This document shows, piece after piece, positions 9,871 through 63,800 of a stretch of DNA of 64,000 nt. A program made the translations under genes and the position numbers. The notes beneath the pieces are model-generated. The model saw nothing but the letters and a program-made list of their open reading frames with translations. It did no database searches and was not told the DNA's origin. Every line of letters begins with the position of its first letter. The stretch's first letter is position 1. This DNA is from Cymbidium sinense (lineage: Eukaryota > Streptophyta > Magnoliopsida > Asparagales > Orchidaceae): positions 152,387,601-152,451,600 of the forward strand of contig CM038221.1 in assembly GCA_021442155.1 (NCBI GenBank), in the 5' to 3' direction.

Positions 9871-9939
9871 TCTATTCAGTGCGGTCCATCAAACCAATAG
9901 GGTCCATATCAAAATTCAAAATTAAAAATCTAAACAAAT

Positions 9940-10744: not shown

Positions 10745-10915
10745 TCAAACTCAAAATTCAAATCAACCTCAAATTTAAATTAGCTTCAAATCCAAATTAA
10801 CTTCAAATTCAAATCAACTTCAAATTCAAATCAACTTCAAATCCAAAATCAACTTCAAACTCATATCAACTTCAAATCCAATTCAACTTCAAACTCAAAT
10901 CAACCTCTATTCTAA
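10745..10915 (+). repeat. 17-bp minisatellite in LTR C
   Basis: About ten imperfect copies of a 15-18-bp unit close to 'caaattcaaatcaactt' lie near the LTR start. In the reverse complement it occurs at 33,180-33,360 (A 3' LTR), 43,675-43,760 (B; fewer copies) and 60,425-60,625 (A 5' LTR; many copies). Copy number therefore differs between LTRs. Confidence 0.85.
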
Positions 10916-25861: not shown

Positions 25862-26140
25862 TGTTTATTTTTTTGTGTTGTGTGTATATGTTAGGGGACA
25901 CCATGGAGATCCAAGGATATATTTATTGAGGTGATCGTGTATGACATTAAGGAATAGTATACTATCTCAAAAGATAGAAATCACTACCCTATAATGAACC
26001 TAATCACCTAATAAGAACCCCTAAGGCATGATGGGTCTTCGAATATACCAAAGATTTTCTCCTACTTTACATGAAAAAGTTAAGCAAGGTTTATTTAAAC
26101 TAGGTTCGTTAAGTTCCCTATGGAGGAAAGCCTCCATAAT
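25862..26140 (-). mobile_element. LTR E, left part
   Basis: The start is TGTTTATTTTTTTGTG, a variant of the TGTGGTGAAATTTT tip. It is followed by 'ttaggggacaccatggagat', which aligns with 'ttagttgacaccacgtagat' at 36,659 in B. It continues until ATAAT at 26,136-26,140, where element A is inserted, and resumes at 60,845. The five bases before it (25,857-25,861, TATGA) would be the left duplication of E; its partner is outside the window. The exact start could be off by a few bases. Confidence 0.75.
26136..26140. other. Left target-site duplication of element A (ATAAT)
   Basis: It pairs with ATAGT at 60,845-60,849. Undisturbed LTRs read ATAGT here ('ccccc' + ATAGT + 'taattac', for example near 53,646). 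The left copy has one G to A change. Confidence 0.8.
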
Positions 26141-39500: not shown

Positions 39501-41034
39501 GTTTATGTTTGTTTGTTTGCTTTGGTTATGAAATTTACATATGTGATGTGAAACACCTTCTTGAGTCATAACATAGAAGTGCATAGGAATAGATTTAAGC
39601 AAGTGTTATGTTCTTTTCAAATGAACTATACACTTTACAAATCCTATACAAACTCATGTTAAGAAAAGAGAAGAGAATCACATAACACATTTTAAGCTAT
39701 AATCACATGCAAGCTTATAAGTACTTATAAGTAGCATAAAGTCATTTATAAGCTTTGATTTATAAGTTTTTAATAATAATTTTTTATTTAGTAGTGATAA
39801 TAGCCACTCATATTCTTACTTTAGCCAAAGCATGCAATTTGACATGAAGAAAAGATTTAATTTATTTTGATTTTTTAAAAGATATGAATGCATGATTTTC
39901 ATATGGCACACAATATTTAGCATGCTTGGAAAGAAATAAAGTGATGTAAGAATGTAACTTCATTCACCCTAATTAATTCCTAAAGACAATCTTATGAAAT
40001 AAGATAACTTAAAGTGAATCAAAATTTCTTTAAAGGGATTTTTATTTTTGTTTTGAGTTTGATTTGATTTAAGAAATGTGAAGAGCTTTGTTGGTCCTAA
40101 CCCATTTCTCCTATGTATGAATTGATTTAGTTTAATTTTTGGAATCATTAAGTTGATTTTATGTTTTGTTAAGGTTATGATGTAAATTAAGTCCATTAAT
40201 TACCCCTTACCTACACCACTTTAACATAATTAACCTAACAATTATGAGCCAACATATGATATGCAACCACATGGAATTGAAATCAGCAATTCACCTAAGA
40301 AAGAAAGGGGCCTAATGTAATTGGCTCACAATTATTGATTAATTAAGCTAAAAGATTTAATTAAGTACTTTGATAACCTTCCCACACATGTGAGTTGGAA
40401 ATGATTTCCTTAAATTTACCTTAGGATTTTGAACACCTAATGATCTACCCAACAAAGGATCGATTTAGCTCAGATTGATTTTGAAAGTTTGATTAAACTA
40501 ATTAAGTAGGTCATTTGTGGATTAATCCTTAATTAAATTTAGATTAAGGAAGAAAGGGGGTTTAGGGAATAGCTTAGGGAAAATATCACAAACCCATTCC
40601 ATAAACCTCCTACTTACTTAAATAATGTTTAATTATCTTAATTAAGTTATTAAACTACTATTCACATGCTTAATTACTCTTACTTACATTAAGAGGGTGA
40701 TTAAGGATTCATTAATTAATTTTCCTGATTAACTCATTAATAAATTCCAGGAAAATTAGGAGAGGCAGAGGTCATCCCACTAAATATATCTAAGAAATTT
40801 GGAATTAATTAATAAAGTAATCAGGAGTAATTAAGGTTATTAAGTTTTCAATTAAACTCTAATTAAGAAAAAAACATTGTTTAAAATCAATTAAAAATAA
40901 TTTTATATTATTCCTCACTGAATTATCTTTAAAATGAAGTTAAATTTTTATTTTTATGATTTTTTTTAAATTTAATTATAAATTTATGAAGTTTTTGTGA
41001 TTAAGGGATAATTAAATAGCCCTAATTAATTAAC

Positions 41035-41490
41035 TAATCCCATTGGCGCCACGTGGACCGCAGACGTGATGCGCGCTTTCCATGTGGCACAGTCAGATTG
41101 TTTATTTAAGTTGTCAAATCACATTCACTGCGGTATACGCACTTTGGTTGTTCAATCAAGGATCAGATGGTTAAGATCAAACCCGCAGTTATGATGGATT
41201 AAATCAATGGATCTAGTGCATTTAATCAGGACCTTCCATCCAAAACATGCGGGATGGAGGGTCCATGATTCATCCCTGCCTTTGCTTATGGGAAACGGAG
41301 ACTGTCCGTCCTCCATGGCTTGATCCGAGCTCACTTGAGCTCAGATACGGCTGATTCAACCCACACCATCTAGAAGTAAGGAGAAGAACATCCAACGGTT
41401 GAATTTCAATGGGATTACAATTCCCTTCACAAAGGACCAAGGATTTTTCTACTTAAGCTCGGTTTTGAGGCATACCTCATCAGAGGCTAT
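41035..41490 (-). promoter_or_regulatory. GC-richer promoter-like block of LTR B with G-box
   Basis: This is the best preserved copy of the block. It contains CCACGTGG at 41,049-41,056 (the core CACGTG is a plant G-box). It has an inverted pair, GGACCTTCCATCC (41,229-41,241) with GGATGGAGGGTCC (41,251-41,263), and ATCCAACGGTTGAAT near 41,391-41,405. The words suggest a promoter or enhancer; transcription was not tested. Confidence 0.45.
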
Positions 41491-42354
41491 CACCGACGCT
41501 TCCAATGGTTGAGGTAGCTTTGTCTAGTGGAGATGAAGCCCTGTTTAAGGTTTCAAGCTTTGAGAAGAAGTGGATCTTCCACCAACCAAATCTCCTTCAA
41601 ATGGCTTGCGCTTTGGTCAGTCTACCCCTCCTGGCTTGGATGCCTGGGAAAAGCTTTGGGTGAGCTCGACTTGCTTCTTGATGGTGCTTGTAAGAACAAT
41701 TGGAGTTTGATTGAGAATTGAGCAAAGTGGAAATCTCTCTCACCTCCCCTATTTTGGCTTTCAAGAAATCTGAGAAGAGGAAATTGGAATGAGCTTAGGA
41801 ATGGCTAGGGAAACTTGGAGAAGCTTGCCTTTGATCCTCTGAGCTCAATCGAATGCAAGGATCGTGGTTTGAGTGGAAATGAGGGGGAGTATATCTCCCC
41901 ATACTTGGATCAAATGGCCAAAGCTTGCCTTACCATTTTGATCAATTTGATCTAATTGAATGGGTTGTTTAGGTTGTTAGGAGCTCCATGTGGTTTGATT
42001 TTGACAGAGGAGTGGAAGTGCTGAGGTGCACATGGGTTAAAATGAGTGTGGGAGGTGATCCAAGTGGAAAAATTTGATTAGAGGGGTCAGTTTGGCCTTG
42101 GGTTGGGTCATGGCTGACCCAAACCCATTGAGTCATGTGCACCACCTCCCTTGGTGTCCAAATGGTCCATTAGGATAATGCCAAGTGGCCATGAAAAGGA
42201 TTTGGCCAAATTCCAAGTGAATTTGGCCATAGGTTATCCTTTGACTCAAGGGTAAAATAATTATTTGGCTTTAATTTTGATTTAGGCAGATTTGAAATGA
42301 TTGAAAAATGGGTTGTGCCAATTTTCAATAAATTTGAAGTTTATTTGATATGAT

Positions 42355-43180
42355 TTGGCTCAAGTCGACCCATTTAGGTCAAATGGGTCAACTTGGGTCA
42401 AGTTGACCAATTGGTCAAATTGGGTCAAACCATGGGTTAGGTCAAGTTCAAATGATCATTTAGAGTGAATTGGTATCATTGGTTTGGTTCAATTTGGTTT
42501 ATATTTGGTTTTGGTTCATTTGAATTCACTTAGGTCAAATGGGTCAAGTTGACCAATTTGACCCATTTGACCCAATTAGGTTAGGTCATGGGTTGGTTTA
42601 GGCTTGGTTGATCATTTTAAATGTTTTACAAGCTTTGGTTTAAATCAATTTTGGTTTGGTTAAGTTTCAAGTTGATTTCACCGTTTAGGTCAAGTTGGGT
42701 TCATGGTCAATTGGGCTCGATTGGGTCTAGTTGGCCAATCGGAGCTTTGGTTAAGTTCAACAAGTTATTTGGAATAAATTAGACCTATTGGTTGCAGTCA
42801 ATTTGGCTTAGATCAAGATTTAACACATTTTGACTTTTTAGGTCAATTTGGGTCAACTTAGGTCAAGTGGCCAATTAAGCTAGGTTTGGCTCAAATGATG
42901 ACTTGGTCAAGTTCAATCATTGATCATGGATTGGTTTTGATCAATGGTTTCAATCAATTTGGCCTATGGTGAATTTTGGCTAGTTTAGATTTCATTTGGG
43001 CTAAGAGTTGACATGGTCTAAGGCTAGGTTTGACTTGGTTTGACCCAATTTGAGTGATTAATCATCCTATGATGATTGTTGCTCATAATGTGCAGCTTAG
43101 ATGGGCTTAGTTCAATACAATTTAGCTTAAAAAGGTGTTTAAGATCATTTTGGGTCAAGTGAGCTTAAGTGGGTCAATTG
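42355..43180 (-). promoter_or_regulatory. TTGACC/GGTCAA-dense array of LTR B
   Basis: At 42,360-42,600 nearly every 10-15 bases hold GGTCAA or TTGACC, often as face-to-face pairs such as GGTCAAGTTGACC (42,396-42,408). Equivalent stretches are at 11,450-12,130, 20,095-20,790, 31,865-32,640 and 59,050-59,860. TTGAC is the W-box core of WRKY factors; regulation is inferred. Confidence 0.45.
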
Positions 43181-43983
43181 GCTTGATCAAGGCTTGATTT
43201 AAGCTTGGTTGAACTCACATATGGACTTATGATTGAAATATAAATCCATTTACAAGTGATTTGGAGTCAAATGGGTTTTGATTCACTTGACAATTTCAAG
43301 TTCAAAGGATGAACATGGGTTTGATTTGTTTTGGTTTGATTTGATTTGATGATTGAAGTTTATGATTGAATTTGGTTTGTGATTGAGGGATTGATTGTTT
43401 GAAGAGAAAATCCAAAGGTTTGAATTGATTTGAGAATGATTTGGTTAAGTTCAAGAATTTAACTTGAAATATTTTAGGTTGGATTTAGATTAGATTTGGA
43501 TTTGAGTTTTGAATTTAGTTTTGGGTATTTGAATTTATATTTCATTCATATTTGTGAATATAAATGAGAATATAAATGGGTTATCAGAAAATCTTTTGAA
43601 TTTGGAATGATTTGGATTTGATTTGAGCTAAGTCCATAAGATGAAATCAAAATGGCATAAGAAAGATTGTAGATTTAGAATTGATTTGGATTTAAAGTTG
43701 ATTTGAGTTTGAAGTTGATTTGGATATGAAGTTGATTTGAATTTGAAGTTTGACTTGAAAGAAGGAAGTAAGGATTTAGTTCAAGCTATAGGGTAGACAA
43801 GTTTTCCTAATGCCCCTACGACATGACCTATTCCTATGGCTACTCTTCTAAGTCTCTAGAGATAGGTTAAGTGTTCACCTAATCACTAAAAATGTCTTAA
43901 GACTAAGGAACTCTTAATGTCTAAGAAGAGTCCTATGTCTAAGATGAAGAAGTTGAAAGCTCACTCCAAAAGTGATGTCAACA

Positions 43984-44230
43984 AAGGGCGCCTAATAGGT
44001 GTGGTGCGAGTGACAAGGCATACCACGCGTATTGGTGTTGACCGAGATGATCAACAACAACGGTCATAACTAACTGAAATGATCTACTCCCAACCCAAGG
44101 TGTAGAAGGAATCAAGAGCTTAGTGCAATGTGACTCTACTTAGGTCAAAGACATAAGAGAGTGAAGGAGGAATTCACTAGGGATAGAGTATATGAACCTT
44201 CCACTAAGAAATAGGTTCAAGTCATCCACT
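43984..44230 (-). other. Stub of element B 3' spacer
   Basis: It continues from the LTR with AAAGGGCGCC and 'ctacttaggtcaaagacata', homologous to 10,524 down to about 10,280 in C and to 33,590-33,840 in A. It ends at the deletion junction, where the sequence switches abruptly to reverse transcriptase. Confidence 0.88.
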
Positions 44231-44240
44231 CGAGGCCATC
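44222..44240. other. Deletion junction: A RT fused to B spacer
   Basis: Read on the minus strand, RT sequence GATGGCCTCG continues as AGTGGATGAC, a spacer word. Intact RT in C reads GAGGATGAAA here, while the intact spacer reads CAGTGGATGACC. The six bases GGATGA are common to both parents. Confidence 0.85.
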
Positions 44241-44640
44241 TTGATTTGGTTGTAGCCAGATGACCCATCCATGAAGGAGAAAACTACATGAGATGAGGCG
44301 ATATCCACCATTAATTTTAGTATAAGAAGAGAAAATTCATCCTTAGGACATGCCTTATTTAAGTCCCTGAAATCAATGCATATGCGAATTTGGCCATTCT
44401 TCTTCTTAATTGGGACAATACTGGCTAACCAGATAGGGTATTTTTCTTCCTTTATAAAACCTGCATCAATTAGCTTCTTGACTTCAAAAATGACCTGTTG
44501 TTCGATTTCCAATCGCATGTGTCTAGGAGCTTGCTTGATAAGGTTAACATTACATGGTCTGCTACATACGCCGAGATAATCTGGGCATCTCTTTATAGCT
44601 CCATGCAAAGCAGTCCTTAAACTCAATCAATAGCCTAACT
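44231..44640 (-). pseudogene. Truncated reverse transcriptase of element A
   Basis: It is open over 44,222-44,626 (134 codons, the last few from the spacer). It starts MSLRTALHGAIKRCPDYLG and continues with the fingers strand LIKQAPRHMRLEIEQ, VKKLIDAGFIKE, then IVPIKKKNGQIRICIDFRD followed by LNKACPKDEF. These are RT blocks 1-3, with the first catalytic Asp expected in the following palm strand (FSFMDGSSGYNQIKMA). The protein ends right after that strand. YVDD, thumb, RNase H and integrase are removed by the deletion. The family's RT is about 250-300 residues, so roughly half remains. It is much better preserved than the copy in C. Confidence 0.92.
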
Positions 44641-46462: not shown

Positions 46463-48547
46463 TTATTTTCCCTTATCTTGAGGAGCTGCCTTAGGAAGTA
46501 GAACCTTGCCACTACGGAGGTTAACTTCGGTGATCTTTTGTGGCGAGTTAGTGGAAGATTCTACTTGCTCATCAGGCTCACCTATAGCTTCTCCTATAGG
46601 ACCCTTGAAATCAGATGATTTCAAGTCTATCTCAAGAAGTGAACCCATATTATTTAGAGAAGGAAAGTCCATCTCTGAATCAAAAAGAGGAAGATTGGAG
46701 TTGTTATAATTATTATTTAGATTTGAAGAGTTTTCTATGAGAGAAAAATTAGACAACCCATCAGAAGCAACACAGATGTGATTCAAACTAGCTTTATTCC
46801 TTGATTTCTTGGATTTAGAAGGAGATACATAGTAAAAATCTAATAAAGTAAGTGGGGGGGGTGAGGGATTTGATGCCCTCATTTGCCGATACAAGATGTC
46901 TGCTAGAAGAAGAGCTAGCTGAAGTAGAAGTGTCAGCTGAAGTAGTAGCTACAATGGTGGAATGACTCGGTGGGTTGCACTACTTGGCTTTCCAAAGTGT
47001 GTGGGTTATTCTCACCGCTTGTTGTTGAGCTCCCACTTTCCCTAAGTTGTCTTTGGCAATTTGCAAACCTTCCTTGATGTTGGAGGTTCAAGCTGCCTCA
47101 GGCCTACAAGGAAAGTTTTTTGATTTTTTAAATAATCTTTTTAGAGGTTCGGGATAATGAGATATCTCAACCTTCTTTTATTCTGAGAGGATCACATGTA
47201 TCCCCAAGGATTACCCTAATGAAACTGGATGGTTACTCCACTAGATATTCCTTAGGGATAACTATGGCGCCTGCCAGTCCTTGAATGTAAAAAAATCCTC
47301 CAAAATATGGCCTAACATGCGATGGTAGGGGCAAAAGTTAGGATCATTTCTCCTGCCCACTTCCTTCGGCTTCCTAGGCTCGGGTAGTTGAAAATCAGGT
47401 TTCTTTAAGAGGTTCTTAAATATTTTCCTAATTATCTTCCTTTGAAATGAATAAGATTTATCTAGTTTATCCTAATGATTAGGTGGAAGAGTAGCTATGG
47501 TGGTATGTAATAGGGTATGGTGAGGAGAAGGCCATGGAGGCTACTGGTGGATGGATGGCCTAGGTGGTGGTAGAAGGTGGAAGTGATGGTTGTAGAGCAC
47601 AAGGTCTGCTAATCACCTTGCTTCCCTTGTCCAATCACGCCTGGCTTCCTTTCATAAGCTTTCTATGGCTTTGAGTTTGTTGATTGATCTTGAAAAGGTA
47701 ACTGTTTGGCCTCTCCTTGTAGACTAGCCACCTTGTTGATTAGCTTCTAAAGTGTCTTGATGGTAAAACCTTTGAGCATGAAGTTAACTGGGCCATGAAT
47801 ATTCATTAGTAGAATTTCAATGGCGTGCTATTCACACAACTACGGTTCATATTTCATACTCAAATTGCATCATCTGAGAATATAGTCAATGAGAGACTCA
47901 CCAGGGTGTTGTTGTGCTACAATGAGATCACCCACAGTCACCCTTTGCTGAGCTCTAGCAAACCTATTGAGGAAGAGTTGCTCCAACTCAACAAAAGTCT
48001 TCACTGAACTATTAGGGACTTTAACATACCAATCAAAGGCTATTCCTACTAAACTACGATAAAAAAAGATGAATAAGAGCATCGTGCACCAAGGTACAAT
48101 TGGTGGCGCGCTATGTATGGTTCCCGCCATCAAAGCTCTTGAAAGAAGGTGGCATAAAACCCTTAGGATACTGGATAACATCAAATTCTTCTAGGTGGGT
48201 CTACCCTTTGGAACCGATGAACCACCTCGGGCTTGCGCCAACACTTCTCTCACTTATTGCTCAATCATGAATTTAATATCCTTTTCTTGTATGGAGGTAT
48301 TATCCACTACCTTCCTATACAAGGTGCCACCGCTCAGGTGAAGTCTTGGGATCCAAGACATGCAATAACTTAGTCGAGAGCTCCATAATAGTAGATGCAA
48401 TGTGGGGCTAAGTGCCAAAACCATTTCTAGCAAGTCTTCAAGCCTCTTTCCCATCCTATATATTTGTTCATCCTTCTGTTTAAGTTGTTGAAGGAGGTGT
48501 TGGGTCAAATGAGTTGTGTCATCCTGTTCGATCGCAACACCTTCCAA
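46463..48547 (-). pseudogene. gag: gag remnant of element A
   Basis: Three open parts remain. The N-terminus at 48,254-48,547 (97 codons) has LLQQLKQKDEQIYRMGKRLE, a likely coiled coil. The capsid-like core at 47,870-48,184 (104 codons) carries AFDWYVKVPNSSVKTFVEL, QLFLNRFARAQQRVTVGDL and AQQHPGESLIDYILR, the typical Ty3/gypsy Gag core. A zinc-knuckle-like word, FCPYHRMLGH, lies at about 47,304-47,333. The C-terminal part at 46,463-46,894 (143 codons) has LLDFYYVSPSKSKKSRNKA and a Ser/Asn-rich tail. Stops and shifts separate the parts. The matching pieces in C confirm the order. Confidence 0.85.
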
Positions 48548-48559
48548 ACCATACTGATC

Positions 48560-50130
48560 CTAAAGGAGGGAACCCTTGGAGTCTATCATATGCACCTCGG
48601 CTGAATCTTTCAACAAATCATCTTTGTTGGGATCAAAGCTAACTTTTTCTTCCTCTAAGTTAGACCGCATACCCTAGAATTTCCTTCTTCTCAACAAGAT
48701 AATGTGCTATGATGTCATCTAGGAGCGGTCTAACTGCGCAGGAAAAAGATCTTGGCTGACCGGTGGTGGGATCATGCTCATGAAAGGAGATGCATATGAC
48801 CTCCCCGGTATCTAGAGAGCTAACCCTATGAGGGCTACACTCACTAGAAGAAATGTGCTCCTAATTATCATCTACTATGGGAGGAGTGCTACTCCTGGGA
48901 GGATCTATCGCCATGGGGCAACTGAACTATCCCCTTCTCCCTTTTCTGCTGCTATGTCCAAGATTTGCTAAGGTGGTGGTTGTGATGGCATGACTACGAT
49001 GCTCTATGGTTTTCACTCCTTCTTCACCACAATTGAAGCAAGAGGTTGAGCAGGAGAGTTCAGCCTCGCCTTAGTTGGCAGTGTAGATGAAATGAAATCT
49101 TTTGATTGTAGTCGGATCACCAATGGACCTCTATTTTCCCCCGATGCTACATTCATGGCCTTTTATGGAACTGTGGAAGATGAAATACTGCTAAGATATG
49201 AGAAGGCTAGAGGAAGTCCACTGGAGGCAAATTATCCAGCATACCGATGTCTCTTCTAGTGGTGACATTGATACCCTCTCGGGCCCTCTCTCAGATAGGC
49301 TTGCAATGGGATGACTAGTGAATCTGGGACTCGACCATCCATAAGCCCCACCAACTCGGTGATGTAAGTCGAATAATGATCTCTCCTGTCTGTAGGAGCC
49401 TCATACAACCATGTGGAGGACATTGATACTCACATCTTCCTCATCAAGAGAGAGGGTGAAACTTGTTCTATGTATGTAAAAGGTAAACTATCCTGGGTGT
49501 CTCCTCTACTAAATTGAGAAACTTCCTCCATCTTTGATGACATGATGCGCTTGATCCATCATCTGCTGTCGTGATTGAGTCCCGCCGGGAGGAGTGCAAG
49601 AACTAGACCTACCTCAGGGAGACTATCCCTGAAGCTAGGGCAACCTTCCCCTTGGAAGAAGCCAACAAGTGGGTGTTAGCCCATACTGGGGCAACAATGA
49701 CAACAACTGAACGAATAGGTGCTGAAACTGCAACTACTACTAGAACTGCTATAGTTCCTCTTCAGTGAGGGAAACTTAAAGTCTTACAATATCTCAACAT
49801 GGATGACCAGCTTCTGCCCGGCCACCACACTCCTATTGACGGTTGTGAGGGTTGTCCCTTCACAAGTGATTCTGGCCCCTTCGAACCCTCAGCCAAAGTG
49901 AATGAGATGGACAAATTCAGTATGTGGGAGGCTGGCCCAATCCAACGCCAAATCCATCCTAAAAGGAAAAGTGAAGACATACTTCTAGGCATTGTGTAAC
50001 AACTTGAGAAATTGACAGAGTTAAAATATTGCAATTTTAAAAAACAAACCTCAATCAGATTTCTGCTTTTGTATTTTACTAAACTTTTGAATTGTGATTT
50101 AGAATTTGAACCCACACTCAACAATTTGAA
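48560..50130 (-). pseudogene. Pre-gag region of element A
   Basis: The longest open part is 49,762-50,124 (120 codons), with a Trp-rich FLLGWIWRWIGPASHI segment; no known domain is seen. Below it the frame is broken. Segments near 49,330 and 48,900-49,010 match element C (near 222 and 640-700). The complementary frame at 49,799-49,999 is probably a shadow. The location equals the extra 5' ORF of Ogre-type elements, but I cannot show relation. Confidence 0.45.
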
Positions 50131-50179
50131 AATTTTAAGTGGGACTCTTTGATTTTAGGAGAGATTTTTGAATTTAGAA

Positions 50180-51880
50180 TCCATTTTCAACAAATTTGTG
50201 TATGTTGGAAATAGGTTCAAATATTTTGAAGAGATTGATGCATCCATCTGTTCATATTTGAATTTGATTTTTGTGTTTGAGTACCCTTTATTTAACAAAT
50301 TTGAGTATGTTAAAATCAAGGGTCAATTGATTTTATTTGGGTTTACTCATTTAGCAAATTTGGGTATGCCAATGAGTTATTTGAAAATAATTTTCTTTTC
50401 TTTTACTTATTTGTGAATCATGAGTGAATTATGTGTGAGTTTGAAAATGGAATCTTTACTTACCAAATTTGGGTATGCTAAATAAAAGACCAAAATGTGT
50501 TTGATTTTTATGATTTTGAAATGAGGATCTTTACTTAGTAAATTTGGGTATGCTAACTAAAAGATCCAAATGTGTTTTGATTTTTTTTTTTTAAAGAGGA
50601 TCTTTACTTAGCAAATTTGGGTATGCTAAATAAAGTGTCCAAATGTGTTTGATTTTTATGATTTTGAAAAGAGGATCTTTACTTAGCAAATTTCGGTATG
50701 CAAAATAAAAGATCCAAAATGTGTTTAATTTTTTTTTTGTGATTTGATCTTGAAAAGAGAATCTTCACTTAGCAAATTTGGGTATGTTAAATGAAGAATC
50801 CAAATGTGTTTGATTTTTTATTTTTGAAAGAGGATCTTCACTTAGCAAATTTGGGTATGCTAAATGAAAGATCCAAATGTGTTTGATTTTTTATGATTTT
50901 GAAAAGAGGGTCTTTATTTAGCAAATTTGGGTATGCTAAATAAAAGATCCAAATATGTTTTTTTTTTTTAAAAGAGGATCTTCACTTAGCAAATTTGGGT
51001 ATGCTAAATAAAGGATCCAAAAGTGTTTGATTTTTTTTATTTGAAAAGAGGATCTTTATTTAGCAAATTTGGGTATCCTAAATAAAGGAACCTATGTGTG
51101 TTTAATTTTTGATTTTGAAAAGAGGATCTTTACTTAGCAAATTTGGGTATGCTAAATAAAAGATCCAAATGTGTTTTGATTTTTTGATTTTTTTTTTTAA
51201 AATGAAACCTTTTCTTAGCAAAATTGGGTATGTTAAGTTAAGAATCCAAGTGTGTTTGATTTTTTTGATTTTGAAAAGAGGATCTTTACTTAGAAAATTT
51301 GGGTATGCTAAATAAAGGATCCAAATGTATTTCATTTTTGATTTTCGAAAAGAGGACATTTACTTAGCAAATTTGGGTATGCTAAATAAAAGCTCCAAAT
51401 GTGTTTTATTTTAATGATTTTGAAAAGAGGATCTTTACTTAGAAAATTTTGGGTATGCTAAATAAAGGATCCCAATGTGTTTTTGGTTTTGATGTTTTGA
51501 TTTTTTAAAAATGAGAACTTTACTTAACAAATTTGTGTATGCTACAAAAGGTTCAAATGTATTTTTGGCTTTGATGTTTTGATTTTTGAAAATGAGAACT
51601 TTACTTAGCAAATTTGGGTATGCTAAATAAAGTTCAAATGTATTTTTTTTATGTTTTGATTTTTGAACATGAGAACTTTACTTTAGCAAATTTGGGTATG
51701 CTAAATAAAGTTCAAATGTGTTTTTATTTTTGATGTTTTAATTTTTAAAAATGAGAACTTTACTTAGCAAATTTGGGTATGCTAAATGAAGTTCAAATGT
51801 GTTTCTATATTTGATGTCTTGATTTTGAAAAGAGGGATCTTTATTTAGCAAATTTGGTATGCTAAATAAAAAAAGAAAAA
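50180..51880 (-). repeat. ~77-bp tandem array with conserved hairpin in A leader
   Basis: About 20 units with the core 'caaatttgggtatgctaa' recur at intervals of about 68-86 bases, for example at 50,463, 50,540, 50,610, 50,843, 50,921, 51,062, 51,138, 51,295, 51,370, 51,610, 51,686, 51,766 and 51,850. Every unit can form a stem: TTAGCA, loop AATTTGGGTA, TGCTAA, usually enclosed by an outer stem such as GGATCTTT/AAAGATCC or GAACTTTA/TAAAGTTC. Between hairpins are T-rich linkers ('tgtgtttgatttttt'). The array lies between the primer site and pre-gag, so it would be in the RNA leader. Open frames at 50,168-50,416 and 51,102-51,359 are repeat artefacts. Confidence 0.93.
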
Positions 51881-51889
51881 AATCCAAAA

Positions 51890-52900
51890 TTATTTTGAAA
51901 AAAGAAACTCTCATTTGACAAATTTGGGTATGTCAAATGGGAAACAATTATGTTTTATTTTTCAAAGATGAAATTTTTGTGTGTGATTGTTGCTTTTTGA
52001 AAAGAAAGAAATTCTAACTTAACACATGTGGGATGTGTTGAGTGGAATTTCAAATAGTGTAATTTTATTTGAAAATAAAACCTCCATCCAACATATTTGA
52101 ATATATTGAATAAAGAAGATTATTTTCAAATTTATACTTTTTGAAAAAGATAGAAATTTCAACTTCAACATATATGAGATATGTTGAAATGGAATTTCAA
52201 TGCTATGATATGATTTTATTTGGGAAAGAAATTTCATTTAATAAATTTGGGTATATTGAAAAAGGATGTTCATTTTTAAATATGTGCTTTTTGGAAAGAT
52301 GATTTTTTATTTTATTTTTGAAAAGATGATTTTTGATCTTGTTCTTGAAAAGATGATTGTTGATTTTATTTTGAAATGAAATCTTCATTCAATAAATTTG
52401 GTATATTGAATGATGTTCATTTTCAAATATGCGCTTTTTGAAATGATCATTTTTTTTTAAAAGATGATTGTTGATTTTGTTTTTGAAAAGATAATTGTTG
52501 ATTTTATTTTTGAAATGATGATTGTTAATTTTATTTTTGAAATGATGATTACTGATTTTATTTTTGAAATAAAATCTTCATTCAATAAATTTGGGTATAT
52601 TGAATGAGGATATCTATTTGTGCTTTTTGAAAAAATAATTTTTTATTTTGTTTTTTTTTTGAAATGAAATCTTTATTCAATAAATTTGGGTATATTGAAT
52701 GAGGATGTTCATTTGTGCTTTTCGAAAGGATGATTCTTTTTTTTTTTTTTTTTTGAAAAGATGATTGTTGATTTTATTTTTGAAATGAAATCTTCATTCA
52801 ATAAATTTGGGTATATTGAATAAGGATGTTCATTTGTGCTTTTTTGAAAGATGATTGTTGATTTTATTTTTGAAAAGATCCTGCATGTTAGATGAGGTTG
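51890..52900 (-). repeat. Diverged second part of the leader hairpin array
   Basis: The same loop is present but the stems are different: CATTTGACA/TGTCAAATG (51,912-51,939), CTTAACACAT/ATGTGTTGAG (52,018-52,042), TTCAACATAT/ATATGTTGAA (52,154-52,178) and ATTCAATA/TATTGAAT (52,388, 52,580, 52,677 and 52,795). Spacing is 70-190 bases because 'tgattgttgattttatttttgaaa' segments of about 30 bases are themselves repeated between hairpins (52,300-52,560 and 52,750-52,880). A T-run lies at 52,737-52,754. Frames at 52,019-52,388 are low-complexity. Confidence 0.9.
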
Positions 52901-53260
52901 AAATATTTTATTATGTGATTTTTTTTTGAAAAGTGAAATTTTTATGAAGGATTTATTTTTTCTTTATTTTAGAATGAACCTTACCTTACCATAGAAATGG
53001 TAAGGGAAGTTCAACAAAAATTTCTTAGTCATTTCTTTTTGTTTAGATTTTATTTTCACCTATTGGGGAACCCAACAGGGGTTTTAAGACCCACACAAAG
53101 TGAGGTCCTAAAACCTAAAGGATGTTGGCTAGCTTAGATTAAGAATGAAATAAACTAAGTGCCAATGGAAAAGAAAGATAGTCTTGGACTCATACAAAAT
53201 ATAAATCCACTATCGATACTTGGAGACAATGATCATTTACCAAAGATGGAGAAAGGAACC
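52900..53260 (-). other. Unique leader segment between hairpin array and primer site of A
   Basis: No gene is seen. It contains 'cctattggggaacccaac' and a perfect 20-base inverted match (53,220-53,239) to the adjacent LTR (53,700-53,719). Otherwise it is non-repetitive within the window. Confidence 0.7.
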
Positions 53261-53279
53261 ATCCCCAGCGGAGTAGCTA
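53261..53279 (-). other. Primer-binding site of element A (tRNA-Arg-like)
   Basis: The minus strand reads TAGCTACTCCGCTGGGGAT, 8 bases after the end of the 5' LTR (53,288). From memory, Ogre/Tat elements use a site close to TGGCGACTC.GCTGGGGA, complementary to the 3' end of a tRNA-Arg. This copy differs at two bases (G to A, G to T). It fixes which LTR of A is the 5' one and agrees with the gag-pol direction. Confidence 0.7.
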
Positions 53280-56200
53280 GAAAAATCTATGGTGTTTAAC
53301 TTTTTTATTTCTCAAACTCTTCTAAAGGAATTTGAAAAATAAAAAATATTTTGGTATGTTATTGTGACAACATGTAGATTCGCAGATGTTCTCATTAGGT
53401 TGATCGAGTATAGCATTGAGGAATGATGTACTATCTCGAGAGACAGAAGTCACCATCCTACAATAGACCTAATCACATATGAGGACTAAGGACAATTAAT
53501 GTCTCTACAATGGATCACATATGAGGACTCTAAGGACAATGGGTCTTTGAATGTACCAGAAATTCTTCCCCTACTGTATATGGAAAAGTAAAGTAGGATT
53601 TATTTTAAATCAGGTTCATTAAGTTCCCTATGGAGGCATGCCCCCATAGTTAATTACATCTTAAAGAATGAGATTCTTTAAGAATATTCTCGATTAAGAT
53701 AAATGATCATTGTCTCCAAAGATTTCAAAGATAGGACTATCAATAAATTGGTTATTTTTGAAAAATCAAGTGAGATTGATCAAAAGGAGGGAGTTATTAT
53801 TGAAGCCAAAGAGAGATGAGTAGGGGATACTCATGATGCTAGGAAGCCTAGCGAGCATCCCAAACTATCCTATAGTTGGGCTTTATATGTTTTTTAAAAT
53901 TTGAAGAGAGCTAATTATTTGAGTTGAATTTTTATTAGAAATCTAGGGCTTACAATTCCATTATACAAGATCATGGAAATGCCTAAGAGGTGAGGATTTA
54001 TGCTTGTAGCCAAAGGGAAACAACCACCTCAGAACCTAAATCTAGGGAGCTTTGGTGAAGGCCAAGGCATGACCTAAATCTAAGGCAAAAATGGGTATAT
54101 GGTTTACTTCCACAAGAGAGGATAAACCACCCGATTATTGGACTTACAACCGCCTGGGGGTGGATGCCAAATAACTCCTCCTACAATTTTAAGTACATGT
54201 AGAAAAGTCTTATGCCTTACAAGATAGTTAGGCTATTATTTATTTAGAAAGAGACTAAGTCCTTAAACACACTCCCTAAAAGACTAGATCATGTAGGGCA
54301 TGAATGATGACTTAAATCTAATGCAAATTTTGTTAATTTTATTTTTATTTTTGGATAACTTATTTGAAAGAGGTTATGGGATTCATATGCCTAATGCATG
54401 AGAAATTGGTTATGGGCCAAAATCAGAAGAAGGAGGTGTGTTTCCACCATGGCTCTCAAAGGTCAATCCAAGTTCGGCAAGGTGGAAGCCCTCCATTAGC
54501 AAGAGTGAAGCAAGTTGATTTTATGCATGATGTAAGACATACAAGATCCAAAGGGGTTGTCAAATCTTTAATTATCTTAATTTATGTCCTAGGCTTTAAG
54601 TGAGGTTATGAGTTGTTAATTTTTGATTTTGAGTTGATTAATTAGATAGAAAATTTATTTATCCTAAGAGCCTAATCGCATCCAAGCCATTCATCAACCA
54701 ATGAAGAAACTAGGAAAAACATGCCATCTTAATGCACAAGCTAAACAAACATCAAACAATTATATAAAGCTAGCACAAAAGAATAAGAGGTCAATGTGGT
54801 TGGGTACCATCGCACAACCCGAAAAGAAATGTGGGTAGCCGATCCCTACCCTTATACAACCCAGATTACAAATGAATAATTACAATCAAAAAGGAATTCA
54901 TGTTATGAGAGTCTTCATTATTCATTCTTCATTTCTTCTTTTCTTTCTTTTCTTTGTTTCTTTCTTCTTTCCTTCTTTTGGTTGGTTGGGATGTGGTTGC
55001 TCCAAGGCTTCACATGGTGCATAAGACTTGGTCTTATGACCAAGGTTCATCCTAATTCTCTCATAACATTCATTCCAAATCTTAATTGCAAAAATTATAT
55101 TAAAATGGGAAATATAAAATCTAACTAAACTTGCAAAATAGAGATTAGCTAAACACACCACACAATCCCAAGTAGTTATAGAAATGAATTGGACTTAGCA
55201 CCCCACACATGGGTAACCAAGTCCACCTGTCCTAATTTTGATTATGCTTAGGGGTATAAGCAACCTGAACAGCAAAAGCATTTATATATTTTTTATTACA
55301 TCGCCCCTTAAGCACAATCCCCTACAAAAGATAATGATTAGAGTAAGATCATCCTATCATCCATTCTACACACATGCACCCTAATATCCACTTTAAAAAT
55401 ATTACATCACAAAATAAAATATTGTATTAAACCATGTACCACCCTAACATAGAGCTAGAAATGGTGACTTAGCCTAATGTGTGTGTCATTTAAGGCTTGT
55501 GTGGCAAGTCTTAGCTAGGCTTTAAGGTTGGAATTTTCTAAGTGTGAAGGATTCAACTTAGAGGGTGGTTTCATTTAAGTGATTTAGTTGATTTGTTAAT
55601 TTTATTTAATGATTTGATTTGGTTTGAATGAACCTACACTTAGTTACTAAATGTTGTAAAGAGAACAAAATATAAGAGAACTTCTCTTTCATCCCTACCT
55701 TAAGTAATTTTTAAGGTAGATTCATTAATGATTTTTCTTTAGTGAATATTTTATTATGTGTTTTAATTAACCCTAAGTTTAGATTTGCTCTAAATAAACC
55801 TATTCAATAAGAAAGGCATTTTAGGATTAATTAAAGTGAATTACTGTCACATAACACATAATAATTTATTTCTTTCTAACATGTTTACCATGCATATGAA
55901 TAAATCCTAAGCATACCTATACATCCAATGTAAATATTAGCACACCTTAATGATGAATGTTAAGAGATATTGCTTAAGAAAATTTGGATATTCCATGATG
56001 CATGATTTTGTTAAGTAGAAAAGAGGGACTCTTTTATCCATTAATTAAATGCACATTTACAAGTATAAAAGATATAAGTGAGTATGACGTCATTATTTTC
56101 TACACCAGGGGTATAAGGCACAAGACCTTCTTGGGGCTACTTAAAGCCTCGCAACCCCGAGATGGCCAAACTAATATACCACATTTCTTAAATATATGTG

Positions 56201-57774
56201 CATATACAAAAAGAAAACAAATGGATGAAGAATCATGCAAAAGATTTTTGTTTGTTTGTTTGATTTGGTTGTATAATTTATGTGTAAATGTGAGGATCCT
56301 TCTTAAATCATAACATAGAAGTGAATAGGAATAGATTTAAACAAGTGTTATGTTCTTTTCAAATGAACTATACACTTTACAAATCCTATACAACCCCATG
56401 TTAAGAAAAGAGAAGAAAATCACATAACACATTCTATGTTATAATCACATGCAAGCTTATAAGTATTTATAAGTAGCATACCTTCATTTATAATCTTTGA
56501 TTTATTGGTTTTGAAAATAGTTTTGATTTAATAGTGATAATCACCACTCATATTCTTACTTTAGCCAAAACATGCAATTTGACGTAAAGGAGACATTTCA
56601 TTTATTTTGATTTTTCAAAAGATATGAATGCATGATTTCATATGGCGTACAATATTTAACATGCTAGGAAAAAAATAAAGTGATGTAAGAATGTAACTTC
56701 ATTCACCCTAATTAATTTCTAAAGGCAAACCTATGAAATAAGATTATTTAAAGTGAATCAACATTCTTTAAAGAGATTTTTATTTTTGTTTTGAATTTAA
56801 TTTTGAAAATGATTTGTGAGAAAGAGTTTGTGGTCTTAACTCATTTCCCCCATGTGTGAATTGGTTTAGTTTAATTTTAGAATCATTAAGTTGATTTTAT
56901 ATTTTGTTTAGGTTAAGGTGTGAATTAAATCCATTAATTACCCCTTACCTATACCACTTTAACATAATTAACCAAATAATTATGAGCCATTATATGATAT
57001 GCAATCACATGGAATTTAAATCAGTAATGCACCTAAGAAATAAAGGATCCTAATGTAATTGGCTCATAATCATTGATTAATTAAGCTAAAGTATTTTCAT
57101 TAAGTACTTTCATAACCTCCCCACACATGTGGGTTGGAAATGATTCCTCAAACTTACCTTTGGCATTTGAACACCTAAGGATCTACCCAGCAAATGATTG
57201 ATTAATTCTATATTAGTTTTAAAAGTTTGATTAGATTAATTAAATAGATCATTAGAGGATTAATCCTTAATTATGTTTGGATTAAGGAAGAAAGGGGGTT
57301 TAGGGATTAACTTAGGGAAAAAACCCTAAACCCATTCCATAAACCTCCTACTTACTTAAACAATATTTAATTATTTCAATTAAGTGATTAAACCACTGTT
57401 CATATGCTTAATTACTCTTAATTATATTAAGTGGTGATTAGGGGTTTATTAATTAATTTCCCTAATTAACTCATTAATAAATTCCAAGAAAATTGGGGGA
57501 GGTAAAGGTCATCCCCCTAATCATGTTTGAGAAATTTAGAATTAATTAATTAAGTAATCAAGAGTAATTAAGGTAATTATATTTTTAATTAAACTCTAAT
57601 TAAGGAAAATCCACTATTCAAAATCAATTAGAAATAATTTTATTGGATTCCCCTCTGAATTATCTTTGAAATGAGCTCTCATTTATATTTTTCTAATTTT
57701 TTACATTTAATTATGAATTTATGAAGTTTCTAAGATTAATGAGTAATTAAACAACCCTAATTAATTAACTAATC

Positions 57775-58230
57775 TTGTTGATGTCATGTGGACCGCTGAC
57801 GCGGCGCGCTTTCCACATGGCATGATGGGATCGGTTATTTAAGTTGTCACATCACATATCGCGTCAGCATGCAATGCTCTTCCTAGCCTGATCATGGATC
57901 GACAAAAGAATAAGCCTGGTTTTAAAGATTAAATCAGAGATAACACATTTAATGGGCCATCCATCCAAAACATGCGGGATAGATGACCCAAGATTCATCT
58001 CTTCCTAAGCTGCGGGAGACGGAGGTCGTCCGTCCTCCATGGCCTGATCTGAGCTCACTTGAGCTCAAATTAGGCAGAGATTCAACTCACACCATCAAGA
58101 AGCATAGGGGAGAACATCCAATGGCTAGATTTTAATGGGATGATAATTCCCTTCATAAAGGACCAAGCATTTTCAATGGAGGATCGGTTTTGAGTCATAC
58201 CTCACTGGAGGCTATCACCAATGCTTCAAA
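57775..58230 (-). promoter_or_regulatory. GC-richer promoter-like block of A 5' LTR
   Basis: This would be the promoter-side block driving element A. It has GACGCGGCGCGC near 57,797-57,808, an ATCCATCC/GGATAGAT inverted pair (57,959-57,982), and a sense-strand 'acttaaataacc' word near 57,835-57,846 that could serve as a TATA-like site. Role inferred from position. Confidence 0.4.
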
Positions 58231-60424
58231 TGGAGGGTAGCTTTGTCTAGTGGAGACAAAGCTCTGTTAAAAGTTTCAAGCCTTGATTTGAAGTGGATCT
58301 TCCAATTGACCAAACTCCCCTCTAATGGCTTGCAGTTTTGATCAAAATCCCCCTTCCCATGGTGGAGACTTGGGATTCACTTTGGGTGAGCTCGACTTTC
58401 TTCCTTGATGGTGCTTGCAAAGTGAATTGGGATTTGGTTAATAATTGAGTGACTTGGAAATTTCTTAGGCCTCCCCTATCTCAGCTATGAAGAAAACCGA
58501 GAGAGGAAAATTCAAAGGAGCTTGAGAATGCTTGGGAAACATGGAGAAGCTTGCCTTTGATCCTTTGAGCTCAATCGAATGCAAGGAAGTTTCTTTGAGT
58601 GGGAATGAGGGGGTGTATATCTCCCCCCTACTTGGATCGGAAGGCTGAGGCTTGCTCTTCCATTTTGGATCAATTGATGAGATTGAATGGGTTATTTTTG
58701 TTATTAAGAGTGTCATGTGCTTCAGTTTTGGTAGAGGAGTGGAGGGGAGAAGGTGCACATGTGCTAGGTGAATGTGGGAGGTGATCTAAGTGGAGAATTT
58801 TTATTGGAGGGGTTAGTTTGGCCTTGGGTTGGGTCATGTGCACCACCTCCCTTAGTGTCCAAATGGTCCACTAGGAGGATGCCAAGTGGCCATGAGAAGG
58901 AATTGGCCAAATTCTAAGTGAATTTGTCCATAGGTTACCCTTTGACCCAAGGGTAAAATGGTCATTTGGCCTTAATTTTGATTTGGACAGATTTTAGATG
59001 TTTCAAAAATAGCTTGGGCCAAATTTCAAAGAATTTAGAGTTAATTTGATATGCATTGGCTCAAGTTGACCCATTTAGGTTAAAATGGGTCAACCTGGGT
59101 CAAGTTGATCAATTGGTCAAATTGGGTCAAACCATGAGTTAGTCAAGTTCAAATGATCATTTGGAGTGATTTGGTATCATTGGTTTGGTTCAATTTGACT
59201 TATATTTGGTTTTGATTCATTTGAGTTCACTTAGGTCAAATGGTCAAGTTGACAATTTGACCCATTTGACCCAATTGTTAGGTCATGGGTTGGTTTAGGC
59301 TTGGTTGGTCATTTGAAATGTATTGCAAGCTTTGGTTTCAAATTTTGGTTTGGCTAAGTTTCAAGTTGATTTGACCTTTAGGTCAAGTTGGGTTCATGGT
59401 CAATTGAGTTGGGTCTATTGGAGCTGGTCAAGTTCAACAAGTGATTTAGAATGAATTTGACTATTGGTTGCAATCAATTTGGCTTAGATAGATTTGACCC
59501 ATTTTGACTTTTAGGTCAACTTGGGTCAAGTGGCCAATGACTAGGTTTGGCTCAAATGATGAGTTGGTCAAGTTTAATGATTGATTATGGATTGATTTAG
59601 ATCAATGGTTTCAATCAATTTGCTATGGTGGATTTTGGCTAATTTGGGTTTCATTTAGGCTAAGCATTGACTTCGTCAAAGGCTAGGTTTGACTTGGTTT
59701 GACTCAATTTGAGTGATTGATCATCCTAGGATGATTGTTGCTCACAACGTGAGGCTTAGATGGGATTAGTTCAATCCAATTTGGGTAGGATTAGAATTTG
59801 GCTCAAAAATGTATTTTTGTCACTTTGGGTCAAGTGAGCCTAAGTGGGTCAATTGGCTTGATCAAGGCTTGATTCAAGTTTGGTTGAACTCACATATGGA
59901 CTTATAATTAAAATATAAATCCAATTGCAAGTGATTTGGAGTCAAATGGGTTTTGATTCATTTAACAATTTTAAGTTCAAAGGATGAACATGGGTTTGAT
60001 TTGGGTTAGTTTGATCTTGATTGATGATTGAAGTTTATGTTTATATTTTGTTTGTGATTGAAGGATTGATTGTTTGAAGAGAAAATCCAAAGGCTTGGAT
60101 TGATTTGAGAATGATTTGGCTAAGTTCAAGAATTTGACTTGAAAGGGTATAGGTTGGATTTAGGTTAGATTTGGATTTGAGTTTTGAATTTGGTTTTGGT
60201 TATTTGAATTTATATTTCATTTATATTTGTGAATATAAATGAGAATATAAATGGGTTATGAGAAAATCTTTTGAAATTGGACTGATTTGTATTTGATTTG
60301 AGCTAAGTCCATAAGATGAAATCAAAAGCTTAGGAAAGATTTTGGATTTAGAATTCAATCATGGGTTTCAATCATTTGATTTAATTGATTCATGATTTAA
60401 GAAAATGCATTGAATTGAATTATG

Positions 60425-60625
60425 ATTTGGAATGATTTGAATTTGAGAAAATGAGTTTTGAATTTGAAGTTGATTTGAATTTAAGAAATTTGGAGTGATT
60501 TGAATTTGAAGGATTTGAATTTGAAATTGATTTGAATTTGAAGTTGATTTGAATTTGAAGTTTGATTTGAATTTGAAGTTAATTTGAATTTGAAGTTGAT
60601 TTGAGTTTGAAGTTTGACTTGAAAG
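60425..60625 (-). repeat. 17-bp minisatellite in A 5' LTR
   Basis: The unit close to 'ttgatttgaatttgaag' is repeated about ten times. It is the longest of the five LTR copies of this repeat and differs in length from its partner LTR (33,180-33,360), so it changed after insertion. Confidence 0.85.
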
Positions 60626-60844
60626 AAGGAAGTAAGAATTTGGTTCAAGCTATAAGGTAGGAAAGTTTTGCTAATTCCCCAAGGCATGGCCTATTCCTAT
60701 GGGAAACCCTTCTAAATCTCTAGGGTTAGGTTAAGTATTTACCTAATCACTAGAAGTTTCTTAAGACTAAGGAACTCTTAATGTCTAGAGGAGTCCTATG
60801 TCTAAGATGAAGAAGTTGAAATCATTCCAAAAGTGAGGTCAACA

Positions 60845-63800
60845 ATAGTTAATTATATCATAAGAAGGTGAGTTCCTTAAGAATACTCTCGATTAAAGTA
60901 AGTGATTGTTGTCTCCAAAGAATTCAAAGATAGGTCTATCAATAAATTGGTTGTACTTTTGAAAATGAAGTGGGATAGATCAAAAGGGGAGAGTTATTAT
61001 AGAAACTAAAGGAGATGAATAGGGAGTGCTCGTGATACTAGGAAGCCTAGTGAGCACTCCAATCTATCATATGGTTGGGCATTATATATTAAAAATTGAA
61101 AATTTATTTGTTTGAGTTGAACTTTATTAGAAATCTAGGACTTATAATTCCACAATACAAGGTATGAAATGCCTAAGAGGTGAGGATTTATGCTTGTAGC
61201 CCATGAAGGGAAATAACAACCTCAGACTCTAAATCTAAGGAGCTTTGGCGAGGGCCAAATCACAACCTAAATCTAAGGAGAAAGTGGGTATATGGTTTAC
61301 CTCCACAAGAGAGAGTAAGCCACCGACTGCTGGACTTATTATTTCCTGGAGTGGCAGCCAACTAACTCCTCATACACTTTAAATTCATGTAGGCAAGTCA
61401 TATGCTTTGCAATATGGTTATAGAAGAGGAAACTAAGTCCTTAAACCCACTCCCTAAGAGACTAGATCATTAAGGGCATGAATAATGACTTAATCTAATG
61501 CAAATTTTATCAAAATTTATTTGATTTTTGGACTTTTTGTTTTGACACAGGCTATAGGTTTTTGTATGCCTAAATGCATGAGAAATTGATTATGGGCCAA
61601 ATCAAAAGAGAAAGAGGTGTCTTTCCATCAAAGGCTCTTACATGTTAAGCCTTTATTCTCTGATACAGATGTAAGCCCTCTTTTAACAAGAGTGGAAGAA
61701 TATGATATGCATGATATTATACACATAATCACCTAGCTAAGGGGTTATTAAATATTTTGTTATCTTGATTTAATTCCTAGGCTTTTGTATGAGGTTGTGA
61801 GTTATTTTAAAATTTTAGTTATGAGTTGTTAGTGGGATAGAAAATTTATTTTTCATCCTAAGAGCCTAAACAGATCCAGGCCACACAGTAATCACCAATC
61901 ATAAATAAACTATGAAAAGGAATGTTATTTCTAATGCACAAGCTAAATAAAATATCAAACAATTTTATAAATCTATTGTAAAAGAATAAGAGACCGGTGT
62001 GGCCGGGTACCACCATACAACCCGAAAAGAAATGTGAGTAGCTGAGCTCTACCCTTATACATCTTGGTATAATGAAAGAATAATTATAATTATAAAATGA
62101 TAAGTGTTATGGGGGTCTTCATTCTTCATCCTCCATTCTTCACTCTTCATCTTTCATTCCTTCATCTTGATTTGCTCCATTTCTTTATTTCTTTTGGCTT
62201 GTTTGGGATGTAGCTTGCTCCAATGGCATCACATGGTATATAAGACATGGTCTTATAATCAATCTTCACCCTTGATCCCCATAACACTTCTCCTAATCCT
62301 AATGCAAATTTATATTAAGAGAAAGGAAAGTAAATCTAGCTGCACCTGCAAAATAAAGGTTATTTAAACACACCATACAACCCAAGCAGTTATATGAATA
62401 ATTTGGACTTAGCACCCCACACATGGATAACCAAGCCCACCTGTCCTAACTTGGGTTATGCTTAGCGGTATAAGCAACTTGCATAGCAAAACATATTTAT
62501 ATTTTTATTATAGTGTCCCTTAAGCACAACCCTCTGCATAAAGCATGATTAGGATAATATCAACCTAACATCCAGACTATGCACATACATCCTAACATCC
62601 AGCCTAAAATAATACATCACAAAACCAAACATTTATCAAACCATGCACCGCCCTAACATAAAGCTAGTAATGGTGATTTAATCTAATGTGTGTGTGTTAA
62701 GTCTTGTGTGGTATATCCTAATTAGGCTTTAGGGTTATAATTTGCTAAGTGTGGGAATTTAATTTATAAAGGGTTGATTTCTCTTTAAGTGGTTTAATTG
62801 ATTTTAATATTTTACTTAGTGTTTTATTTTGTTTCATATGACCTACACTTAGAAACTAAGTGTTATGTAGAGAAGAAAGAGAGGGAATATCTCTTTTATC
62901 CCTACCTTAAGTCATTTCTAAGGTAAGTTAATTAATGAATTTCCTTTAGTGAATAGTTTATTATGTGTTTTAATTAACCCTAAGTTTAGATTCACTCTAA
63001 ATGACCCTATTCAATAAGAAAGGCATATTTTAAGATTAATTGAAATGGATTACTATCACATAACACACATTCATTCATTTCTTTCCATCATGTATATCAT
63101 GCATATGAGTAAATCCTAAGCATACATATACATGTAATGTATATTCTTAGCATACTTGAATGATGAATGCAAAGAAGTGTATTTGGAATTTAAATATTTC
63201 ATTTTGATTGAATTATGAATGCATGTCTTTATTACATAAAAAGAGGGATTTTTCATCCATTAGCGAGGTACACATTCACAAGTATAAAACTTTTAAGTGA
63301 GTACAGTATCATTATTTTCTACACCAGGAGCGTAAGGTACAAGACCTACTTAGGGCTACTTAAAGCCTCGCAGCCCCAGGATGTCCAGACTAATATACCA
63401 CTTTTCTTAAATACATGTAGATGTATGAACAACTATAAGGATAGAAAACCCATGCAAAAGTTATGCTTGATTTATTTCATTTATGATTCTTATTCATACA
63501 TTATACATGCATATATAAGAGTTTTAAGTGAGGCACCAATATTTTATACACTACATAGGTACAAGACCAACTACTGGGCTACTTAAAGCCTCATGGATGT
63601 CTGACTAATATACCACTTTTCTCAAATAATGAATGTACAAAAAGAACCACATGAATAGGGAATCATGCAAAAAAATTATGTTTGATTTGATTATGTGATT
63701 TACATATGTGATAGAAAATTCTTCCTAAGTCTTAACATGGAGATGCATAGGAGTAGATTTAGACAAGTGTTATGTTCTTTTCAAATGAACTATACACTTG

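Follow-up and report, generated by a model that had tools for sequence, protein, structure and literature searches.

A tandem array of hairpins with a near-constant loop in the leader of a Ty3/gypsy retrotransposon of Cymbidium sinense

Ty3/gypsy elements fill large plant genomes, and to our knowledge the packaging and dimerisation signals of the plant elements are hardly known. A 64,000-nt stretch of the Cymbidium sinense genome (the window) raises the question of why a tandem array of hairpins should keep its loop while its stems change and stay paired. A preliminary description, made from the letters of the window, had reported about 30 such units in a retrotransposon leader and had read the paired substitutions as selection on structure, acting either in the genomic RNA or through DNA cruciforms. 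We give a probability of roughly one in two to the reading in which a high-copy Ty3/gypsy element has the array as its 5' leader, with the RNA fold and loop under selection for dimerisation or packaging.

Results

The array and its host element

The window is made up of plant-type repeat DNA and contains 31 hairpin units on the minus strand, which is the gag-coding strand and had been left unnamed in the preliminary description (Table 1; the loop bounds of four units were set by hand). The loop AATTTGGGTA is exact in 20 units and carries one mismatch in 6, so that 26 of the 31 differ by at most one base; two others have a 9-base loop, and three (52025, 52095 and 52172) have another loop at the homologous place. 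The count and the shared loop of the preliminary description are thereby borne out, and on inspection of the units the stems that it listed stand where it had placed them.

Table 1. Parts of the array and of the element that carries it, by position in the window
Feature	Positions	Strand	Details
Hairpin array, 31 units	50175..52831	-	Loop starts 59-193 bases apart; covariance model
Three divergent gag-side edge units with individual stems	50175..50384	-	Loops at 50193, 50298, 50357
Main class (class I), 19 units, period ~75	50448..51877	-	Inner stem mostly TTAGCA/TGCTAA
Outer-stem subclass of class I, GAACTTT/AAAGTTC	51512-51797	-	Part of main class
Unit with stem CATTTGACA/TGTCAAATG	51903..51948	-	Unit inspection and arm pairing
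Three altered-loop units (52025, 52095, 52172)	52007..52199	-	Two with another self-complementary 8-mer at the loop: CACATGTG, CATATATG
PBS-side units	52226..52831	-	52244 is TTTAATA/TATTGAA; class VI is four units with ATTCAATA/TATTGAAT (52395, 52588, 52683, 52804)
Further PBS-proximal hairpin, different loop	52976..53012	-	Core CTTACCAT/ATGGTAAG, 52985-53004
Primer binding site (PBS)	53262..53279	-	16/18 letters as in published PBS primer TCCCCAGCGGAGTCGCCA (iPBS 2395)
5' LTR	53290..60845	-	Minus-strand 3' end at 53290; homology ended at 60845 by another repeat
Array-gag intervening region, possible upstream ORF	49305..50000	-	49305-49536 common to copy 1 at window start
gag remnant, two open pieces	47870..48559	-	Retrotrans_gag in 47870-48190, E = 0.0014, below Pfam cut-off
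Reverse transcriptase (RT) remnant	44222..44626	-	RVT_1, E = 0.00056, below Pfam cut-off; broken off at 44222

Across the whole window, AATTTGGGTA with at most one mismatch was observed 46 times, compared with 11.9 +/- 3.7 in shuffled sequences. A motif-free scan yielded 63 hairpins scoring at least 18, and 17 of the 21 that score at least 28 sit at unit loops. A covariance model built from the 31 units returned the same 31 on the minus strand, as expected by construction, and found nothing in the rest of the window below E = 0.14; eight units also gave weak plus-strand matches (E = 0.0005-0.09). An Rfam search of the window at gathering thresholds matched no known RNA. The 16-mer core was found in 11 stretches of viral and 50 of prokaryote collections, with one match each, which we judged to be chance. 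The sense strand of 50100-52950 is A-rich and G-poor (A 43%, G 7.5%); it contains 24 ATG, compared with 33.5 in shuffles (14 of 500 as low), and the other strand contains 100, compared with 76.5.

The element that bears the array (copy 2) is a Ty3/gypsy retrotransposon, probably of Tat/Ogre-like type. Its gag and RT remnants, taken together with the integrase zinc-binding domain of a second element (copy 1), follow the gag-RT-integrase order of Ty3/gypsy, with RT before integrase. Copy 1 occupies 1-7.6 kb on the plus strand and is homologous to the array-element region up to the window edge; the zinc-binding domain lies in 6540-7049, downstream of its RT region (PF17921, E = 3e-06, above cut-off), and an RVT_3 match lies in 6064-6297 (E = 0.022, below cut-off). 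An additional archaeal-type RNase H before the integrase is a feature of Tat elements, and Ogre elements have an extra ORF upstream of gag and an intron separating protease from RT. In copy 2, an open stretch of 130 aa at 49762-50154 on the minus strand has no Pfam match.

The PBS matches primer 2395, which we take to correspond to tRNA-Arg, and a primer other than tRNA-Met is a Tat/Ogre feature. The sequence of primer 2395 is given in a table of PMC9245474, seen in excerpt, and the available part of the survey PMC6317226 names mainly Ala, Arg, Asp, Lys and Trp tRNAs as primers of non-chromoviruses. PBS and LTR end are 10-11 bases apart, more than the 0-5 used in the same part of that survey; elsewhere in the window, copies of the LTR repeat stop at nearly the same point as the one at 53290. 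We ruled out the array as the 3' UTR of a plus-strand element, with gag on the other strand and PBS and LTR on the far side.

Several further features of the locus were observed. Copy 2 ends within RT at 44222-44233, where an LTR remnant follows immediately. The LTR repeat is very long, at least 7.5 kb and perhaps 10 kb with a 300-base tandem region (53290-60845, 36590-44233 and 26137-36575), and two of its copies, judged by eye, abut directly at ~36585-36590. Tandem repeats of ~300 bases adjoin LTR copies at 34184-36274 and 9166-9934 and may represent this family's own 3' UTR array of the usual Tat type. A 19-base inverted repeat (89%; 53301-53346) lies immediately within the LTR end, and inspection by eye showed similar hairpins in two further LTR copies. 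The LTR copies also contain 17-base repeats resembling TTTGAATTTGAAGTTGA or its complement, at 33198-33359, 43672-43753, 60425-60623 and 10745-10920.

Copies elsewhere in the genome

In the host genome (3.5 Gb), the array DNA gave 2995 first-look candidates, of which 40 were scored. We fetched 20 of the best distinct array matches and probed them with pieces of the window, locating gag in 17, the upstream region in 19, the gag-side array edge in 19, and the PBS region and the LTR after it in 15 each. Array, PBS region and LTR stand in order in 15 of the 20, and gag, array, PBS region and LTR in 12; the copies without the PBS region are L070, L072, L073, L079 and L089. The PBS core motif CAGCGGAG[T/C] is present in 3 of the 20, with all 18 letters exact in L074 only and 17 of 18 in L093. 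The array of copy 1, with 20 units on a single strand, sits upstream of the window (L090). After it comes the upstream region, split into two halves by an insert of ~7.5 kb, the latter half continuing into the window. Because of the order of gag, array, PBS region and LTR and of this upstream array in copy 1, the array is a retrotransposon leader, as the preliminary description had placed it, and its RNA loop reads UACCCAAAUU.

Each copy has 12-32 loop units. A distant test set comprised four stretches upstream of other RT copies; three (L091, L092 and L093) contained arrays, and the fourth (L094) gave no match to any window probe. On the side, L070 carries an inverted piece of LTR on its upstream side, the LTR is followed by extra pieces in L081 and L088, and the insert at L090:2124-9633, within the upstream region of copy 1, holds LTR-like DNA. 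PBS-proximal hairpins with other loops also occur in L071, L074, L081, L082, L084 and L086, and the one of the form TAACAATC-TTGAA-GATTGTTA recurs in 6 of 21 scanned copies. The RT piece gave 82,973 first-look candidates in the host genome, 150 of which were scored; one match group (query from ~25 on, ~80-85% identity) is often stop-free and may be younger.

Pairing of the arms

The two arms of each unit fit each other far better than arms exchanged between units. For the 31 units, mean fold energy was -11.8 kcal/mol with cognate arms vs -7.6 with swapped arms on the plus strand, and -12.5 vs -7.6 on the minus strand; swaps matched the cognate energy in 0 of 10,000 trials on either strand and in 0 of 20,000 in a second run. 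The same held for 11 divergent class representatives (0 of 20,000), whose pair counts were reached in 1-14 of 20,000 swaps, depending on strand and length. Over pairs 1-10, 255 of 310 cells are Watson-Crick. Over 15 pairs (465 cells), 79.8% pair, compared with 74.0% for shuffled partners (0 of 500) and 35-50% for slid partners. In the MAFFT alignment, changes occur on both sides in 13 of the 15 pairs, and 50 cells are compensated vs 24.2 in shuffles (0 of 500).

Within class I (19 units), we found no compensation. The inner six pairs gave 107 of 114 with cognate vs 107.2 with swapped arms on the plus strand and 105 of 114 vs 105.5 on the minus strand, and ten pairs did no better (163 vs 161.7 and 174 of 190 vs 173.2, respectively); whole-unit energy retained a weaker cognate signal (56 and 268 of 20,000 on the two strands). 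The earlier claim of co-varying stems thus stands between divergent types and is not borne out by pair counts within the main class. The absence of compensation there would be expected if a broken copy had decayed once inserted, or if selection on the single units of a redundant array were weak.

In the distant stretches, 46 units defined by their loop, none of which had been used to define the structure, paired in the same register, with 67.6% Watson-Crick at pairs 4-12 compared with 18-36% for slid partners. Their cognate arms beat swapped arms (z -8.9, 0 of 20,000), and their outer stems differ again from those of the first family.

Tree-aware tests of covariation

We compared the units with a null in which columns evolve independently on a tree of the units; these trees were built from 42-43 columns and are weak. 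In the window, 170 of 186 inner pairs are Watson-Crick vs 127 under the FastTree null (0 of 500 runs) and 143 under the IQ-TREE null (2 of 300). For the 21-copy set of 354 distinct units, the observed count was 1899 of 2124 pairs vs a null maximum of 1761 (0 of 200), and with the distant stretches included 2103 of 2388 pairs are kept (0 of 500). The null reached the observed mean energy in 30 of 500 and 4 of 300 runs on the plus strand and in 5 of 500 and 0 of 300 on the minus strand.

Phylogeny-aware tests of single pairs gave no hairpin pair with E < 0.05 in any run (window, 21-copy set or distant stretches added). The best was pair 5, with E = 0.05 among 16 tested and E = 0.06 among 14; hairpin pairs made up 5 of the top 10 among 861 column pairs and 4 of the top 10 among 496, with neighbouring outer columns ranking above. 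Same-branch changes from one Watson-Crick pair to another were inferred 4-5 times in the window and 5 times in the 21-copy set. Double changes of any kind in the window numbered 8; 34 of 500 and 38 of 300 null runs had at least as many, which leaves no clear excess. The helix as a whole is constrained far beyond the tree-based null, and no single pair reached significance. The covariation check proposed in the preliminary description, and its reading of paired substitutions as selection on structure, are accordingly supported at the level of whole helices and fall short pair by pair.

Conservation of the loop

Class I and class VI share 98.5% identity in the loop and 51% in the inner stem. The preliminary description had held that unpaired mutations equally frequent in stems and loops would speak against selection on structure. 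Within class I, substitutions affect 3 of 189 loop positions, fewer than the 17 of 152 at pairs 7-10 (p = 0.0003), and the difference from inner stems (10 of 228) has a Fisher p of 0.16.

The two halves of the loop change at different rates: across the 354 units, 23 changes were inferred in AATTT vs 88 in GGGTA (p = 4e-10), and the criterion by which units were picked (at most one loop mismatch) was the same for both halves. The conserved half plus the closing base is the self-complementary word AAATTT, so that the array places a palindrome in hairpin loops close to the 5' end of the genomic RNA, a feature of dimerisation sites. A self-complementary word of at least six bases overlaps the loop in 30 of the 31 window units (in 52095 at another place), and it is mostly one conserved word. 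In a perfect-stem scan, all four hairpins of the 52172 type keep another self-complementary word, which in the three beyond the window unit is CATATG or ACATATGT; the scan also found at least four unit hairpins that have lost the self-complementarity of the loop word (L074, L081, L085 and L089).

Strand preference of the fold

In the window, mean fold z was -4.25 on the sense and -2.57 on the antisense strand, with 27 and 18 of the 31 units, respectively, below -2; 143 control stretches gave -0.58 and -0.31. The preference recurs in 384 units of 20 other copies (-5.18 sense vs -2.84 antisense, sense better in 326) and in the 46 units of the distant stretches (-3.72 vs -2.65, sense better in 37). 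The 249 spacers gave +0.45 sense and +0.63 antisense, and z fell below -2 in 4 of them vs 343 of the 384 hairpins.

On the sense strand, 377 of 409 units have U-G or U-A at pair 7, and 232 have C.A there on the other strand; in the distant stretches pair 7 is C-G in 14 of 46. Without pair 7, wobbles in pairs 1-12 of the 409 units showed no sense bias (185 sense G.U vs 206 antisense). We therefore rejected wobbles as proof of strand, which fails once pair 7 is left out. Of the two settings that the preliminary description had offered, genomic RNA is favoured by the stronger fold on its strand, and DNA cruciforms keep the point that both strands beat shuffles.

Discussion

Our analysis establishes where the array lies, that its units carry a fold signal and how change is distributed between loops and stems. 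From these patterns, we infer that selection has acted at the RNA level. In the minus-strand genomic RNA, with the array between PBS and gag, each unit would fold into a stem of ~10-16 pairs with the 10-base loop given above, and while the element was active selection may have held the fold and the loop and left the stem letters free. Local tandem duplication enlarged the array and left old divergent types at its edges and recent copies in the middle.

The hairpins most likely act in dimerisation and packaging of the genomic RNA, as cis-acting sites of its recognition. We favour this function because of the proximity to the PBS, the palindromic half of the loop, and the precedents of Ty3 PAL6 and the Ty1 kissing loops. 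The loop would offer the self-complementary AAAUUU (CAAAUUUG with the stem included in many units), through which two RNAs could meet by many weak loop-loop contacts, Gag perhaps helping. As this word consists of A and U only, a single kissing contact would be weak. A tentative and more specific proposal is a multivalent zipper, in which some 10-30 hairpins with the same weak self-complementary loop join two genomic RNAs by many kissing contacts; stem letters might then drift as long as pairing and the loop palindrome were kept. If true, packaging would here depend on a signal built from repeats, in contrast to retroviruses and yeast elements with their one or two sites.

The hairpins might instead act in RNA without dimerisation, the loop being read by a protein (Gag/NC or a host factor) or the fold serving translation, export or stability. 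Conserved loops on unconserved stems agree with such a role, as does the slight scarcity of AUG in the sense array, but we consider it unlikely: self-complementarity lies in the very half of the loop that is conserved (AAAUU as a protein site fits this too), and each of the four 52172-type hairpins retains a different self-complementary word, for which a protein site would have no need. A role in DNA, as cruciforms or as the site of a DNA-binding protein in the integrated copy, would account for the folding of both strands and for wobbles without strand preference outside pair 7. It is made very improbable by the lower sense z in most units of the other copies and the distant stretches, and by pair 7, which in 232 of the 409 units pairs only as sense RNA.

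Matching arms could also arise without selection. Templated correction of quasi-palindromes, by strand switching within the hairpin during replication or reverse transcription, would yield compensatory changes and longer perfect stems, such as those of 52025 and 52172, where part of the loop has turned into stem. We hold it to be improbable: it leaves the conserved loop and its off-centre palindrome unexplained, the C.A mismatch that pair 7 makes in plus-strand DNA persists in more than half of the units, and single unpaired changes persist in class I. That the array is a functionless, ordinary hypervariable Tat-type repeat grown from one palindrome is hardly credible. Such repeats are common in Tat/Ogre elements according to the available parts of PMC7004042 and PMC11963269, local duplication is evident and within-class covariation is absent; yet divergent types keep their pairing, the tree-aware nulls are beaten and the spacers between the hairpins lack the fold.

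Dimerisation and packaging thus remain our preferred function, and a repeated, loop-conserved hairpin is a concrete, testable candidate signal. The many copies of the family, with 2995 first-look DNA candidates, allow the constraint to be measured, and stems that changed and yet stayed paired suggest that the folded shape matters for the copying of the element.

Tandem repeats in Tat/Ogre elements are known, and a leader array of co-varying hairpins seems to be new as far as our literature search shows, as titles and abstracts of the open-licence PMC literature yielded no such array in a plant retrotransposon. The arrays of Tat, Ogre and Retand elements are likewise short tandem repeats inside a Ty3/gypsy element, family-specific and variable in copy number. 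In the available parts of PMC7004042 and PMC11963269, however, their place is downstream of pol, either within the 3' UTR or ahead of the 3' LTR, whereas the Cymbidium array is made up of hairpins whose loop is near-constant and sits between PBS and gag. Conserved packaging and dimerisation signals are mentioned for the copia-type element BARE in an excerpt of PMC3735527. In yeast, dimerisation of Ty3 RNA is driven by a 6-base palindrome (PAL6) in an apical hairpin close to the 5' end (PMC11381356, in part), and Ty1 uses kissing loops (PMC5454406, in part). With these and the retroviral dimerisation sites, as those excerpts portray them, the array shares a short complementary word, placed apically in a hairpin close to the 5' end of the genomic RNA. 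It differs in that the known systems have one or two sites and PAL6 is GC-rich, whereas the Cymbidium element has 12-32 loop units per copy, with a putative role in dimerisation and a palindrome of A and U only.
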